Assembly: GCF_026151205.1 (NCBI RefSeq) | Contig: NC_087081.1 | Coordinates: 2,361,246 to 2,425,245 of the forward strand | Reading direction: 5' to 3' | Source of the DNA: Bolinopsis microptera | Lineage: Eukaryota > Ctenophora > Tentaculata > Lobata > Bolinopsidae | Length of the DNA: 64,000 nucleotides | Shown here: positions 1,965 through 48,000 of the stretch, piece after piece | Layout of the letters: every line of letters starts with the position of its first letter | Numbering within the stretch: the first letter of the stretch is position 1 | Translations under genes and position numbers: made by a program | Notes under the pieces: model-generated | Seen by the model: the letters and a program-made list of their open reading frames with translations, nothing else | Databases searched by the model: none | What the model was told of the DNA's origin: nothing

Positions 1965-4900
1965 TCACCCAAATTCAATGTCATCAGGGTCTTCTTCGAG
2001 ACAATTTATGGGAGAAGGAGATCTGTACATGTGACTGCCTCTTTGAAGAGGTACCTGAAGATATAGAAATAAAACTGTGTTTGCCAATAAATTATAAATA
2101 AATTGGATAACCCTACACCACAATTAAATAATAGTCATGGTATTGGGATGCACATAATTAGAATATGAAATAATATCTGTGAAACAGTTACATACCAAAT
2201 GTTCCTGATGGCCAACTCTGCTTATGTGTTGTTCTTGGAGACGTAGTTGAAGATTTAATTCATCTACATGATCTTGTAATGCTAAGTTTTGAGATAACAA
2301 ACTTTGCTCTCCATTTTGGCTCTTGTCTCCGATGACTGAAATTTTTATCTTTAGAAGACAGAGACCCAGCTCCAGAAATTTTAGATGATTATTACATGCA
2401 ACATGAACATCTGTTAAATGAAGTCAAGAAAACAACAAATTTCAAGAAAACAGTTTCAAATAACTTTCAAACAAACACTTTTATAAACGTTCTAAGTTCA
2501 GCTCTTTTTATTATTTTGGTTGATATTAGGATCACAAAGATAGTGAAACAAATTTTAGTGAAACAAATTTAAAATTTTATCCTTTATTTTACAATCATAA
2601 TATAATAGTATTTATAAGCCTCCGTTTTGAAAGTTTTAAATTTTAATATATTCACATTTCTATTTAAAATTCAATTTTATGTATAAGTCAATAACTGGCT
2701 GCCAAAGCCGCGCAATTATGAAAACAGGATTAACTTGTTTATAGTTATACGACAAATAGAAATAAATTTAAAACTATCCGTTTTTTTAAATAAATTATAG
2801 TCTTAAACCTAAATCCAAAGCCAGCTTTGTAATATTTACTAGATTAGATCATAATATATCGTCAATTCTAAATATTTACAGTGCAACATTTCATTAATCT
2901 ATAAACAAGCGTACTCCAGCCCCTACACGCATCCATTCTAATGCGGCGCGGCTCAAGCCGCGCATGCACGTATTATTTTATATTTTTTGCTTTCTGATAA
3001 ATATCGTGTCAATGTGTACGAATAAATGTTCATGTTTTGTGTAAACCGAATCCAGTTGAGATTAGTGACAAGGATAAGGACCCAAGTGCCTGTACGGCTT
3101 TTTCGGACCCCTGTGGACCACTACTCTTGAAATTGCTCTACAACTATTGAACATTTATAACTGTTATATAATATATAATAATCCAGTATAGTATAATGAT
3201 TAACTTTAAGATAGTATACAATACAGTTTCAGTAGTTGACCCATACAGTTAAGTCCGTCATAACTCACAATCGTTTAATCATTTGTCAATTGTCAAAGTT
3301 GTTGTGTGTTTATTTGCTGAGATAGCAGTAAGATAAGTCTTATGTAGTAAATTGGTATTGAGAGAGAAAACCAATTCCAATCAAGCACACAATATCTATT
3401 AAGTAACTGGATCAGCTATTGTCAGAATCAAAGACAGACTTAAGCCAACTTGGGGGGGGTCCAACTACAAAAAATACGAATACGAATTTCAAATTTTAGG
3501 GGTGCGTTCGTATTTTTTCGTATTTTTTCGTATTTTTTACCAACATTTTTTTACTCTAGAAATAACTAAATATCCCAGAGAAATGGATCTATAAATTCAT
3601 TGGTATTCTCCGTTGTATCTTCGTATATTACACTGTATGACATCAGAGAAGATAAATAAGAGGCAGCAAAACTGGTGAACAAATGAAAATACAATACTAC
3701 GATTACCTACTAATTAATAATTGGAGTTTAGCTGCTTGTCAATCTCACGTAAGCGTAAATGTCAAAATCACTGGGATATTATCACAATTCAGATATCATG
3801 ATGTATTAATTGTGATTTATAAAGGTCTTTGAATGCTTCATCACAGAATATTATTGCCAAATACGTCTGGTAAGTTGGGTTCCTAAAACGAAATTTAATC
3901 AGCTTCGGTTGAACCCATTATATATTATAATAGTTTAGCTCTTTCTAGTCCCCTGCTACACGGCATGTAAACAGGGATTGGCTAGTTAGAGGCGGTCCGT
4001 GTAGGCCTTACACTGTGCTTTCAGCAATACTCATAATATATAGACTATATATGGCACATTCATATTAATATTCTATCAGATCTTTCTGAGGTTTCTAGGC
4101 GATATAGGTAGCTATTTCTGTACTTAAATATGACAAGAAATCGATTGGTGGTGGTCCCAGAACCCCAAAATGGTTTCTTGTTCTAAACAAGAATCGTTTC
4201 GTCCGAAAAACAACACACTGTCGTATCAACTCTTGTTTGACAGAAACATCCACCCGGTCCACAATTGAAAGAGGTACGGTTGGTAATAACAATCGTAAAA
4301 AATAGCGAACGCTTTAGTAACTTTTGATTTAAATTGTCTCCACAATTTGTAACAGGCTATCTGCAGAAATGGGTAGCACGGTTAATGACCATGGTCCTTT
4401 CTCAAACTTCCAATCCTCAGTTAGATACAAAGAATAGTCTACACAATTTTTAATAACATTAAAAGGGATGAAAATCACTTTATTTATCAAAATCTTTATT
4501 CATCATGTAACAACTTTTCCATAGTACTGGAGAGTAAAACTCTCTTAAACAAAATAATTCTCGAGCACATTTTGAGGCAGTAACAGTAACATGTCAATAT
4601 GTTACAGACTCAAATGCGTTTAAAAACATTTTAGTAACAATAAATTGTGTAAACTGATGAGGAGGAGGAGGAGGACTGATGAAGAGGAGCACTGAGGAGG
4701 AGGAGGAGGAGAAGGAGGAAGAGGACTGGGGAAGACTGACGAGGAGGAGAAGGACCGAGGAGGACTGAGGAGGAGGAGGAGGACTGAGGAGGAGGAGGAC
4801 TGAAGAGGAGAGGGAGGACTGTCGGACTGAGGAAGAGGAGCAGGATTGGTGAGGAGGAGGAGGAGGAAGAGGAGGACTGAGGAGGAGGACTGATTAGGAG

Positions 4901-45000: not shown

Positions 45001-48000
45001 AGGACTGAGGAGGAAGAGGAGGAGGATAAAGAAGAGGAGGAGGACCCAGGAGGAGGACCCAGGAGGAGGACTCAGGAGGAGGAGGAGGACTCAGGAGGAG
45101 GACTCAGGAGGACTAAGAAGGAGGAGGACTGAGGAGGATGGCTGAGGAGGATGGCTGAGGAGGATGACTGAGAGGGAGGAGGAGGAGGAAGAGGAGGAAG
45201 AGGACTAAGGAGGAGGAGGAGAAGGACTGAGGAGGAGAAGGAGGACCCAGGAGGAGGAGGACCCAGGAGGAGGAGGACCCAGGAGGAGGACCCAGGAAAA
45301 GGCCCCAGGAGGAGGAGGAGGACTGGGGAGGAGGAGAACTGTTGAGGACTGATGAGGAGGACTGAGGACGAGGAGGAAGAGTAGGAGGAGGACTGAGGAG
45401 GGGAGGAGGAAGAGGACTGGGGAGGATCAGGAAGACCCAGGAGGACCCTGGAGGAGGAGGAGGACCCAGGAGGACTGAGGAGGACTGAGGAGGACTGAGG
45501 AGGAGGACTGACGATGACTGAGAAGGAGGAGGACTGAGGAGTACTGAGGAGGATGGCTGGGGAGGATGGCTGAGGAGGATGACTGAGGAGGATGACTGAG
45601 AGGGAGGAGGAGGAGGACTCAGGAGGAGTACTCAGAACTTCAGAAGGAAGAGGAGGAGGACTCAGGAGGAGGACTCAGGAGGAAGACTTAGGAGAAATGA
45701 GAAGGAGGACTGAGAAGAACTGAGTAGGAGGAGGAGGAGGAGGACTGAATAGGAGGAGGAGAAGGAGGGGGACTGGGAGAGGACTGGGGAGGAGGAGGAC
45801 TGATGAGAAGGATGAGGAGGAGGACCCAGGAGGAGGAGGACTGAGGACCGAGGAGGAAGAGGAGGAGGATGAAGAGGAGGAGGAGGACCCAGGAGGAGGA
45901 GGACTGAGGACTGAGGAGGATGGCTGAGGAGGATGACTGAGAGGGAAGAGGAGGAGGAGGAGGAGGAGGACTGAGGAGGACTGAGAAGGAGGAGGAGGAG
46001 GAGGACTGAATAGGAGGAGGAGGAGGGGGACTGGGGGAGGACTGAGGAGGAGGATGGAGGACTGAGGAGAAGGATGAGGAGGAGGACTGAGGAGGACTGA
46101 GGAGGAAGAGGAGGAGGATAAAGAAGAGGAGGAGGACCCAGGAGGAGGACTCAGTAGGAGGAGGAGGACTGGGGAGGAGGAGGACTGTTGAGGATTGATG
46201 AGGAGGACTGAGGACGAGTAGGAGGACTGAGGAAGGGAGGAGGAAGAGGACTGAGGAAGATCAGGAAGACCCAGGGGGAGGAGGAGGAAGAGTAGGAGGA
46301 GGAAGCATCTAAATGTTATTTCCATTTTTGTCCGTTTTTGTCCATTTTTGTCCGTTTTTGTCCGCTCTATTTTTTGTCCGTTTTGAAAATATAGGGTACC
46401 GAACGGACAAAAAACATGATCCCCCCTATAACAGCAAAAATTGAACATTTTATTTAGCAATTTAGGTGTCCATTAATGTCCGCCTATGTCCGCCTATGTC
46501 CGCCTATGTCCTTCTATGTCCGCCTATGTCCGCCTATGTCCGTCTATGTCCGCCTATGTCCGCCTATGTCCTGTCCTTTTTGGATTCTATGAGACAAGCG
46601 GACATAGACGGACGTGACACCCCCCCCATTATTGATAGCATTCGGTATTAGCAGTTTATAGAAAATAATAAATAGTCATACACCTGTGAGTATGACAATT
46701 TTCCCTTGTGACTTGCCAACACAACCTTTTAGCCAAATTAAATTTTTGCTAAATTTGATTTGGCTTAATTGAGTGACACAATCGCTCTTATAAAGACCAG
46801 ATAAACTTGGATAATTGCATTATTGTATATCGCAAAGATTTTCGACTACATGCTGCATGCATGATGCATGGGGATCTGCTGACTAGTTCAAGAAATTCCT
46901 GGTTTTTTACAGCATGGCCATGACTGGACGCGCGCGCGCCGGCGCGCATGTATACGACAGGCTGTGCAGATTACTTTACATGACTTTCGTAACATGCGCG
47001 CGGCGTAAACGTAGTACAACTTTTGTAACCGTTCCAAAAGAAGTTTTGCGCAGCATGATCTCATGTTTCAAATAACATAATTTGCTCACAAACTTGATAC
47101 ACAGATTCTTCTTGCTGCACAAATAATCACATGCAAGTAGCCGGTAACTTCTTATTTTACATGGTAAGTCTTATGGAAGAAATGTGGACTGTGATAAGAG
47201 TACGAGACGATGCTCGAAAAATTTGAGTTAAATTTTCCTTTGAAAACAGGAAAATTGTACAGTTTACTAGAAAGAAACCTTACCCGAATAATCCAAAAGT
47301 TTACAGTGTAAAATTACCTGAGCCCGAAGTTCTAGTGGGTCGGTCTCCATTCATAACGACAGCAGATCTTGCTCGAGTCAGCTCTATTTCATCTTCCAGC
47401 GAATCTGACAGTGCTTCTGATAACTGACTGTCCCGCCACGCCTGTATGGTAATTAATGAAGAGGGGGGGCCTTGTTAAGTCAGGGGCCAGGGAGGGGGGG
47501 CCTTGTTAAGTTCACATTCTAATTATATGTTCAAGTGGGTGCTCGTATAACAATTATGTGACAACAGTTAATTTAATTTAACTCGGTACATATTGATGAG
47601 TTTTTAATGTAGTGCATATTTTTTAATATGATCCAGTGATTCTGTGCTCATGGTACTAGTTTGATTGTAAAAGCCATTTAAATTCACCAAAGTTACCTTA
47701 ATAATGTTATCGTCCAACTGAACGACTATGTGCGGTCGTCGCATAATTGGGTCCCATACTTTCTTTTCTCGCATCGCTTTATCAAGAATCTGAATATATG
47801 AAGTTCAGTATGCCCAGATTTTAAGGAGAAGAATAATCAGAAAGTAATTAAAAACATGTTAATTGACAATGTTAATTGACAATTGAAATGTAAAATACTA
47901 AAAAGGGTATTAAAACCATTAACTCACATCTTTAGGCACACTGATGTTGGGATTATCAGTGTACGGTTCCCAGTTATAGAGATCCTCAATAATTATGGGT

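Follow-up and report, generated by a model that had tools for sequence, protein, structure and literature searches.

Two described groups of DNA transposons are among those that come closest to the elements reported here. The P superfamily, in the excerpted text of PMC8230255, encodes DDE transposases with a D(2)H motif and an insertion domain, with a spacing of 73/36/192. KolobokP elements, in the excerpted text of PMC9587614, carry long direct terminal repeats that contain inverted repeats of their own, and have 5′-RR..YY-3′ termini. We analyzed a 64,000-nucleotide stretch of the Bolinopsis microptera genome (C10:2361246-2425245; hereafter the window) that holds three elements, E1, E2 and E3, each of which begins with a run of G and ends with a run of C. 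These are probably non-autonomous copies belonging to a group of cut-and-paste DNA transposons with ends that are alike in build and diverged in sequence. Cut-and-paste transposition is an ordinary machine; the ends are very unusual, with at least six end families and one homologous gene.

G-capped elements share an end architecture

A first-pass annotation of the window had proposed a common blueprint for the three elements, and this proved real: a target duplication, G-run, inverted tip, direct block, tandem core and C-run are present at E1, E2 and E3 (Table 1). For a scan, the window was joined to the next 200 kb rightward (264 kb; joined coordinates begin with the window), and we required a G-run of at least 4 followed by a C-run, a tip match of at least 11/14 and a flank repeat of at least 6. 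Six G..C pairs passed the combined criteria, as against none in the mirrored C-run to G-run control; other-base controls, with runs of at least 5, gave one A..T and two T..A pairs. The tip criterion by itself does not discriminate (22 G..C versus 36 C..G pairs, runs of at least 4), so it is the combination of tip and flank criteria that separates the elements from the controls. Permitting runs of 3 added one pair (joined 140253-150615), which is probably due to chance. Together with E6, which was found by eye and which the scan overlooked owing to a three-base offset of its tip, there are thus seven G-capped elements (E1–E7) in the window plus 200 kb.

Both ends of all seven carry a direct block (50-103 bp), the two copies being 90-98% alike. 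The block is itself palindromic: a palindrome, scored as an exact inverted match of 12 bases that starts no more than 30 bases from the tip and has its partner within 260 bases, was found in 11 of the 13 listed ends of paired elements versus 1 of 15 other runs of at least 7. The two features, tip and block, are therefore one structure, a hairpin-type end, of which each element has two copies facing the same direction. Several ends contain tandem units of about 10 bp (AATGGCATAA in E2, ATGTCCGCCT in E3, TTCGTATTTT in E1 and, by eye, GTCAATTAAT in E5). The lengths of the G- and C-runs differ between the two ends of most elements, those of E3 (G8/C8) and L038 (G10/C10) being equal, and among eight E2 copies read the G-runs range from 7 to 31. 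A repeat of another kind, which ends in CTTTAATATGGTTG plus poly-C and lacks the hairpin design, occurs at joined 119136-119157 and 122196-122212 and at L045:5910-5930.

The annotation had also anticipated further G-capped elements elsewhere, and in the searched genome (264.65 Mb, 232 contigs) each family that was searched has between 47 and 316 exact tips. With a G-run of at least 5 there are 134 tips for E7, 47 for E1 and 316 for E3; E2 has 134 with G7 or more and 241 with any left neighbor, and the reversed-pattern controls for all four families returned zero throughout. Some of the 107 E2 tips that lack a direct G7 are those of a sister family in which TA stands between the G-run and the tip: the three loci read, which were chosen for a nearby gene match, all have this arrangement (G7, G8 and G7, each followed by TA-CCAATGGCATAAAATGG). 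Among the first 100 of the 134 E7 tips there are 41 facing pairs, with a median of 3.25 kb, and one opposite-facing neighbor within 10 kb; all 47 E1 tips were listed, giving 21 facing pairs and no opposite-facing ones. At G000 C8:6259513-6266028, two E7 elements follow one another in head-to-tail order, and about 3 bp separate the tip match at the C-run of one from that at the G-run of the other, a spacing as expected from a dimer or circle junction.

Target duplications and an empty site

E4, a member of the E2 family, is inserted into an inverted repeat with arms of about 420 bp, one of which holds the element while the other is empty. The joined flanks of E4 and the empty arm are identical at 417 of 417 compared bases, with one TAATGTAC in the empty arm and two around E4. 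This comparison shows directly that both G31 and C17 are part of what was inserted and that 8 bp were duplicated, so the boundaries are those predicted from the window elements. The identity of the empty arm also suggests that E4 is a young insertion, unless the arms were homogenized.

Fifteen elements with both ends were available for a comparison of flanks: six (E1–E5 and E7) selected using the flank criterion, and nine (E6, found by eye, and eight others) chosen without it. Three E2 copies (L029, L030 and L034) were left out of this count, their second end being unreadable in the fetched stretch. The flanks match at 8/8 positions in nine elements, at 6 or 7 in five and at none in one (the C11 element); a match of at least 6 thus occurs in 14/15 elements versus 0.5% of random pairs (suffix match), and in 8/9 of those chosen without the flank criterion. 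In the five elements with 6 or 7 matches, the non-matching bases adjoin the C-run and read C. Between the C-run and the duplication lie four bases (GGCC) in L033 and three in E5. Two hallmarks of cut-and-paste transposition are present: terminal inverted repeats, and a target duplication, most often of 8 bp, with a clean empty site (E4).

A homologous gene lies inside G-capped elements

Homologous gene pieces are found just inside the G-capped tips of relatives of E1, E3, E5, E6 and E7 and of an E2-like family. A 172-aa frame of E7 gave 119 genome matches and a fragment from L037 gave 144. A gene match lies inside 40 of the 41 E7 facing pairs (those among the first 100 of the 134 tips) and inside 20 of the 21 E1 facing pairs, the only exception being the window's own E1. 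For E2-type tips, 4 of the 100 listed are within 1.4 kb of a gene match, always on the element side (34 of the 144 gene matches compared). Eight gene loci were fetched (L037-L042, L045 and L046), and seven are inside or at G-capped tips; L038 was chosen as a gene locus because it lies between tips, and the tips of L039 fall just beyond the fetched stretch. The ends of the elements near and in the window resemble those of these loci: E1 matches L037 and L040 at 94% and 91% over about 500 bp, an E3 end of the window matches the coding locus L046 at 89% over 175 bp, E5 matches L041 at 83% over 95 bp and E6 matches the L042 element at 82% over 169 bp.

The fullest open copy of the gene is a 763-codon reading in L042, with an ATG at codon 2. 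L044, L042 and L043 adjoin and contain one E6-type element of 7 kb, which also has a second frame of 264 codons and a further frame that by eye resembles an inserted retroelement. A homologue of the second frame (25% over 107 aa, E 1e-7) adjoins the L045 gene, and no homology was detected for the frame next to the L046 gene; the elements may thus encode a helper protein. The E5-like element L041 has both of its ends and a duplication of 7 or 8 bp, and its 521-aa frame (L041:2827-4389) lacks the first part of the catalytic region. The same frame length recurs in six other matches among those listed (one with an internal stop marked), and the L041 product might act as a repressor. L046 starts an E3-type element whose gene pieces are spread over three frames and whose right end lies beyond the stretch read. 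L049, one of the three E2-like loci with TA behind the G-run, was read far enough to show the end of the gene (346 aa). In the coding members read, the runs extend from GG up to G10, which means that a cap can be short. Within the L045 gene region, a 133-bp G16..C7 stretch (L045:4079-4211) has roughly inverted tips and by eye no target duplication.

By eye and by alignment, L042, L045 and L046 have in common an N-terminal C-x2-C..H..H finger and the motifs [SA][IV]D[AS]T, DGD and D-x-LH-xxKK-xRN (DxxH), and L042, L041, L046 and L049 have in common SD-x-NEQ-xFA-x-[VI]R. The spacing in L042 is D298-137-D435-48-D483-177-E660; L045 has 46 and L046 has 47 residues from D to DxxH, and L046 has 174 from DxxH to E. 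The product is probably the transposase of the G-capped families, and its class is best read as DxxH (hAT/P/MuDR/Kolobok/Dada).

In such a transposase, the core would be RNase-H-like (D..D..DxxH..E) with a helical insertion, and the N-terminal zinc finger would bind the subterminal repeats of about 10 bp or the palindromes. The protein would pair both hairpin-type ends and cut where the run meets host DNA; the element would then be inserted into a target whose two strands are cut 8 bp apart, and repair would make the duplication. The runs would be element termini that drift in length (2 to 31) and differ between one end and the other, and the C-run may sometimes overwrite one or two bases of the neighboring duplication.

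Satellite cores

The GAG satellites of E1 and E3 share 142 16-mers, versus a mean of 7.5 and a maximum of 19 after triplet shuffling. The annotation had called the three elements unrelated; E1 and E3 are therefore not wholly so. Satellites adjoining the gene in L037, L039 and L040 have 245-265 16-mers in common with E1 and 155-174 with E3, counts for which there is no control. The tandem core of E2 is different from the GAG satellites, and by eye E5, E6 and E7 have no tandem core; satellite growth is thus an event inside some elements that lies outside the blueprint, and carrying a satellite is no defining trait of the group. The window copies are gene-less derivatives that lack the coding region. 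In E1 and E3 the GAG satellite fills the interior, most likely having grown where the coding part was lost. Two further tandem arrays occur in the window, a 52-bp satellite at 57488-59610 (41 copies, 97% alike) and a 317-bp repeat at 15632-17125 (4.7 copies, 98% alike).

Table 1. Positions of the G-capped elements and their parts. Coordinates are those of the window for E1–E3 and of the joined stretch for E4–E7; percentages are the similarity of the two direct blocks.
Feature	Position	Strand	Remarks
E1, entire	3452..8081		G8/C31; inverted tip 21 bp, exact; direct block 50 bp (98%); flanks equal at 7/8 bases
E1 target duplication, left	3444..3451	.	GCCAACTT
E1 G-run	3452..3459	+	G8
E1 left inverted tip	3460..3480	+	21 bp, exact
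E1 left direct terminal block	3469..3518	+	palindromic
E1 satellite core	4658..7156	+	GAG-type
E1 right direct terminal block	7992..8041	+	
E1 right inverted tip	8030..8050	-	
E1 C-run	8051..8081	+	C31
E1 target duplication, right	8079..8086	.	CCCAACTT; overlaps C-run
E2, entire	37616..39504		G15/C7; tip 13 bp, exact; direct block 102 bp (98%); same flank twice
E2 target duplication, left	37608..37615	.	GTCTAATC
E2 G-run	37616..37630	+	G15
E2 left direct terminal block	37633..37734	+	palindromic; 10-bp repeats AATGGCATAA
E2 tandem core	38123..39097	+	326 bp x 3.1
E2 right direct terminal block	39394..39494	+	
E2 C-run	39498..39504	+	C7
E2 target duplication, right	39505..39512	.	GTCTAATC
E3, entire	43066..46627		G8/C8; tip 13/14 (5 exact from end); direct block 58 bp (97%); same flank twice
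E3 target duplication, left	43058..43065	.	CCATTATT
E3 G-run	43066..43073	+	G8
E3 left direct terminal block	43078..43134	+	
E3 minisatellite	43145..43338	+	20 bp
E3 satellite core	43431..46303	+	GAG-type
E3 subterminal repeats	46476..46571	+	10 bp, ATGTCCGCCT x 9.6
E3 right direct terminal block	46546..46603	+	
E3 C-run	46620..46627	+	C8
E3 target duplication, right	46626..46633	.	CCATTATT; its CC overlaps C-run
E4	joined 97330-98423		family of E2
E5	joined 117031-117803		
E6	joined 168126-168455		330 bp
E7	joined 184863-188448		

Discussion

The annotation had ascribed the elements to one machinery that reads the G-capped tip. Given the coding relatives and the homologous gene that links the families, the best reading is a single machinery, or a few that are closely related, which might read the cap. 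The annotation's "non-autonomous elements" fits the window copies, gene-less as they are; coding copies exist among their relatives. We infer the identity of the transposase from position, motifs and copy pattern, as the libraries yielded no match above cut-off and the structure predictions were poor.

Several observations weigh against this interpretation. Nothing in Pfam, in NCBIfam or among the PDB sequences matches the gene product above cut-off; a Pfam search at a report threshold of E 10, within HMMER's filters, matched no transposase domain, and the sub-cut-off Pfam matches are to unrelated families (best Ost5, E 0.0064). Two structure models of the protein are low in confidence and too poor for use, and the putative DDE core is recognized by its motifs. 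As for an autonomous copy, coding relatives exist, with the long L042 reading among them, and we found none complete in gene, two good ends and target duplication. The L042 element (C11) has only GG at its left end and no target duplication was seen there, and L045, one of the eight gene loci, has no paired tips. Most gene copies are C-terminal-side pieces, the catalytic half having six matches at five places genome-wide. Because the queries came from E7 and an E1-type locus, the pair counts establish the gene as a regular component of the families and not as their mover; E2 itself was not seen with the gene, which is found in its E2-like sister family. Finally, six of the fifteen duplications came from elements picked with the flank criterion.

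How far the group departs from described transposons is a further question. There is about an even chance that the transposase belongs to a known DxxH-class superfamily (P, hAT, MuDR, Kolobok, Dada), or to one like Novosib for which the libraries searched may have no model, and that the elements are unusual only in their ends. The DxxH motif and its 177 residues to E are as expected for such a protein, the P spacings of 36 and 192 in the excerpted text of PMC8230255 compare with 48 and 177 here, and an 8-bp duplication also fits (PMC3706591, in excerpt); the lack of any Pfam transposase-domain match at E 10, within HMMER's filters, speaks against it. Genome scans for the P (PF21787) and KDZ domains returned zero, but the controls were silent too, and hence these scans carry no weight. 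Less probable, and put forward only tentatively, is a new DDE superfamily with palindromic direct blocks and hypervariable G-run caps that would be needed for, or made by, transposition and would be able to overwrite the duplication.

We think it unlikely that the elements are composites of the KolobokP type, in which each end block is a separate small transposon. The direct blocks are palindromic and the elements run GG..CC, which recalls KolobokP as excerpted in PMC9587614, but the blocks measure only 50-103 bp, their inner end lacks a full tip or G-run, and the duplications are 6-8 bp rather than TTAA or 3-5 bp. Convergence, in which unrelated superfamilies gained G-runs by slippage of a terminal GGG in a genome tolerant of poly-G, seems slightly less likely again: 9 of the 17 runs of at least 9 in the 264 kb are not element ends, but the gene pieces are homologous across the E1, E3, E5, E6, E7 and E2-like families and the palindromic direct block is common to the elements. 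That the runs are assembly or sequencing artifacts is highly improbable, for although homopolymers above 20 are difficult to size and individual run lengths may be wrong, the abundance of G-capped tips (134 for E2 with G7 or more, 134 for E7 and 316 for E3 with G5 or more), the empty reversed-pattern controls and the exact target duplications directly outside the runs all argue otherwise.

The favored reading, of gene-less derivatives of one cut-and-paste group, implies that families with differing end sequences can be linked via a common end architecture and a homologous gene. The empty arm at E4 provides a ready-made empty site, and why long poly-G would persist at transposon tips becomes testable. 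If the transposase does fall outside the named superfamilies, one superfamily would be added, and the gene-less, satellite-filled derivatives would suggest a route by which satellites originate and spread.

Comparison with known transposons

Duplications are about 7-8 bp in the P superfamily and 9 bp in MuDR/MULE elements, and hAT tips are CAGGG-like. Membership in hAT was rejected because the gene has no match to the Pfam hAT dimerization domain and the tips are not CAGGG-like, and membership in MuDR/MULE because the gene has no PF10551 match, though the genome has 88 MULE matches, and the duplication is 8. Zisupton/KDZ elements resemble ours in their 8-bp duplications (PMC12730594, in excerpt), but the gene has no PF18758 match. 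Merlin tips start with GG, its duplications are 8-9 bp and some copies have tandem repeats (PMC8101967, in excerpt); here the gene has no DDE_Tnp_IS1595 match in Pfam, and this assignment was likewise rejected. Tetris of Drosophila virilis, in the excerpted text of PMC4079207, is a non-autonomous foldback element with satellite-seeding tandem repeats and 8-9-bp duplications; it differs in that the tandem repeats are within long inverted repeats, that its transposase was not found and that the excerpt makes no mention of G caps.

KolobokP, as excerpted in PMC9587614, shares with our elements the direct terminal repeats with inverted repeats of their own, the RR..YY termini and the DxxH class. 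Its direct repeats are long, a second gene encodes a His-Me nuclease, and the duplications are TTAA or 3-5 bp, as expected of Kolobok or KolobokP members; the duplications here are 6-8 bp, and membership was therefore rejected. The P superfamily, which includes Galileo of Drosophila and THAP9, differs in several respects: the gene here has no THAP or P-type RNase H match at the sensitivity of Pfam, the tips are G-capped, the zinc finger pattern is another one, and the spacing of 137/48/177 in L042 compares with 73/36/192 in the excerpted text of PMC8230255. The likeness, in the excerpted accounts, lies in a D(2)H DDE transposase with an insertion domain and, for Galileo, in long inverted ends that are internally repetitive.

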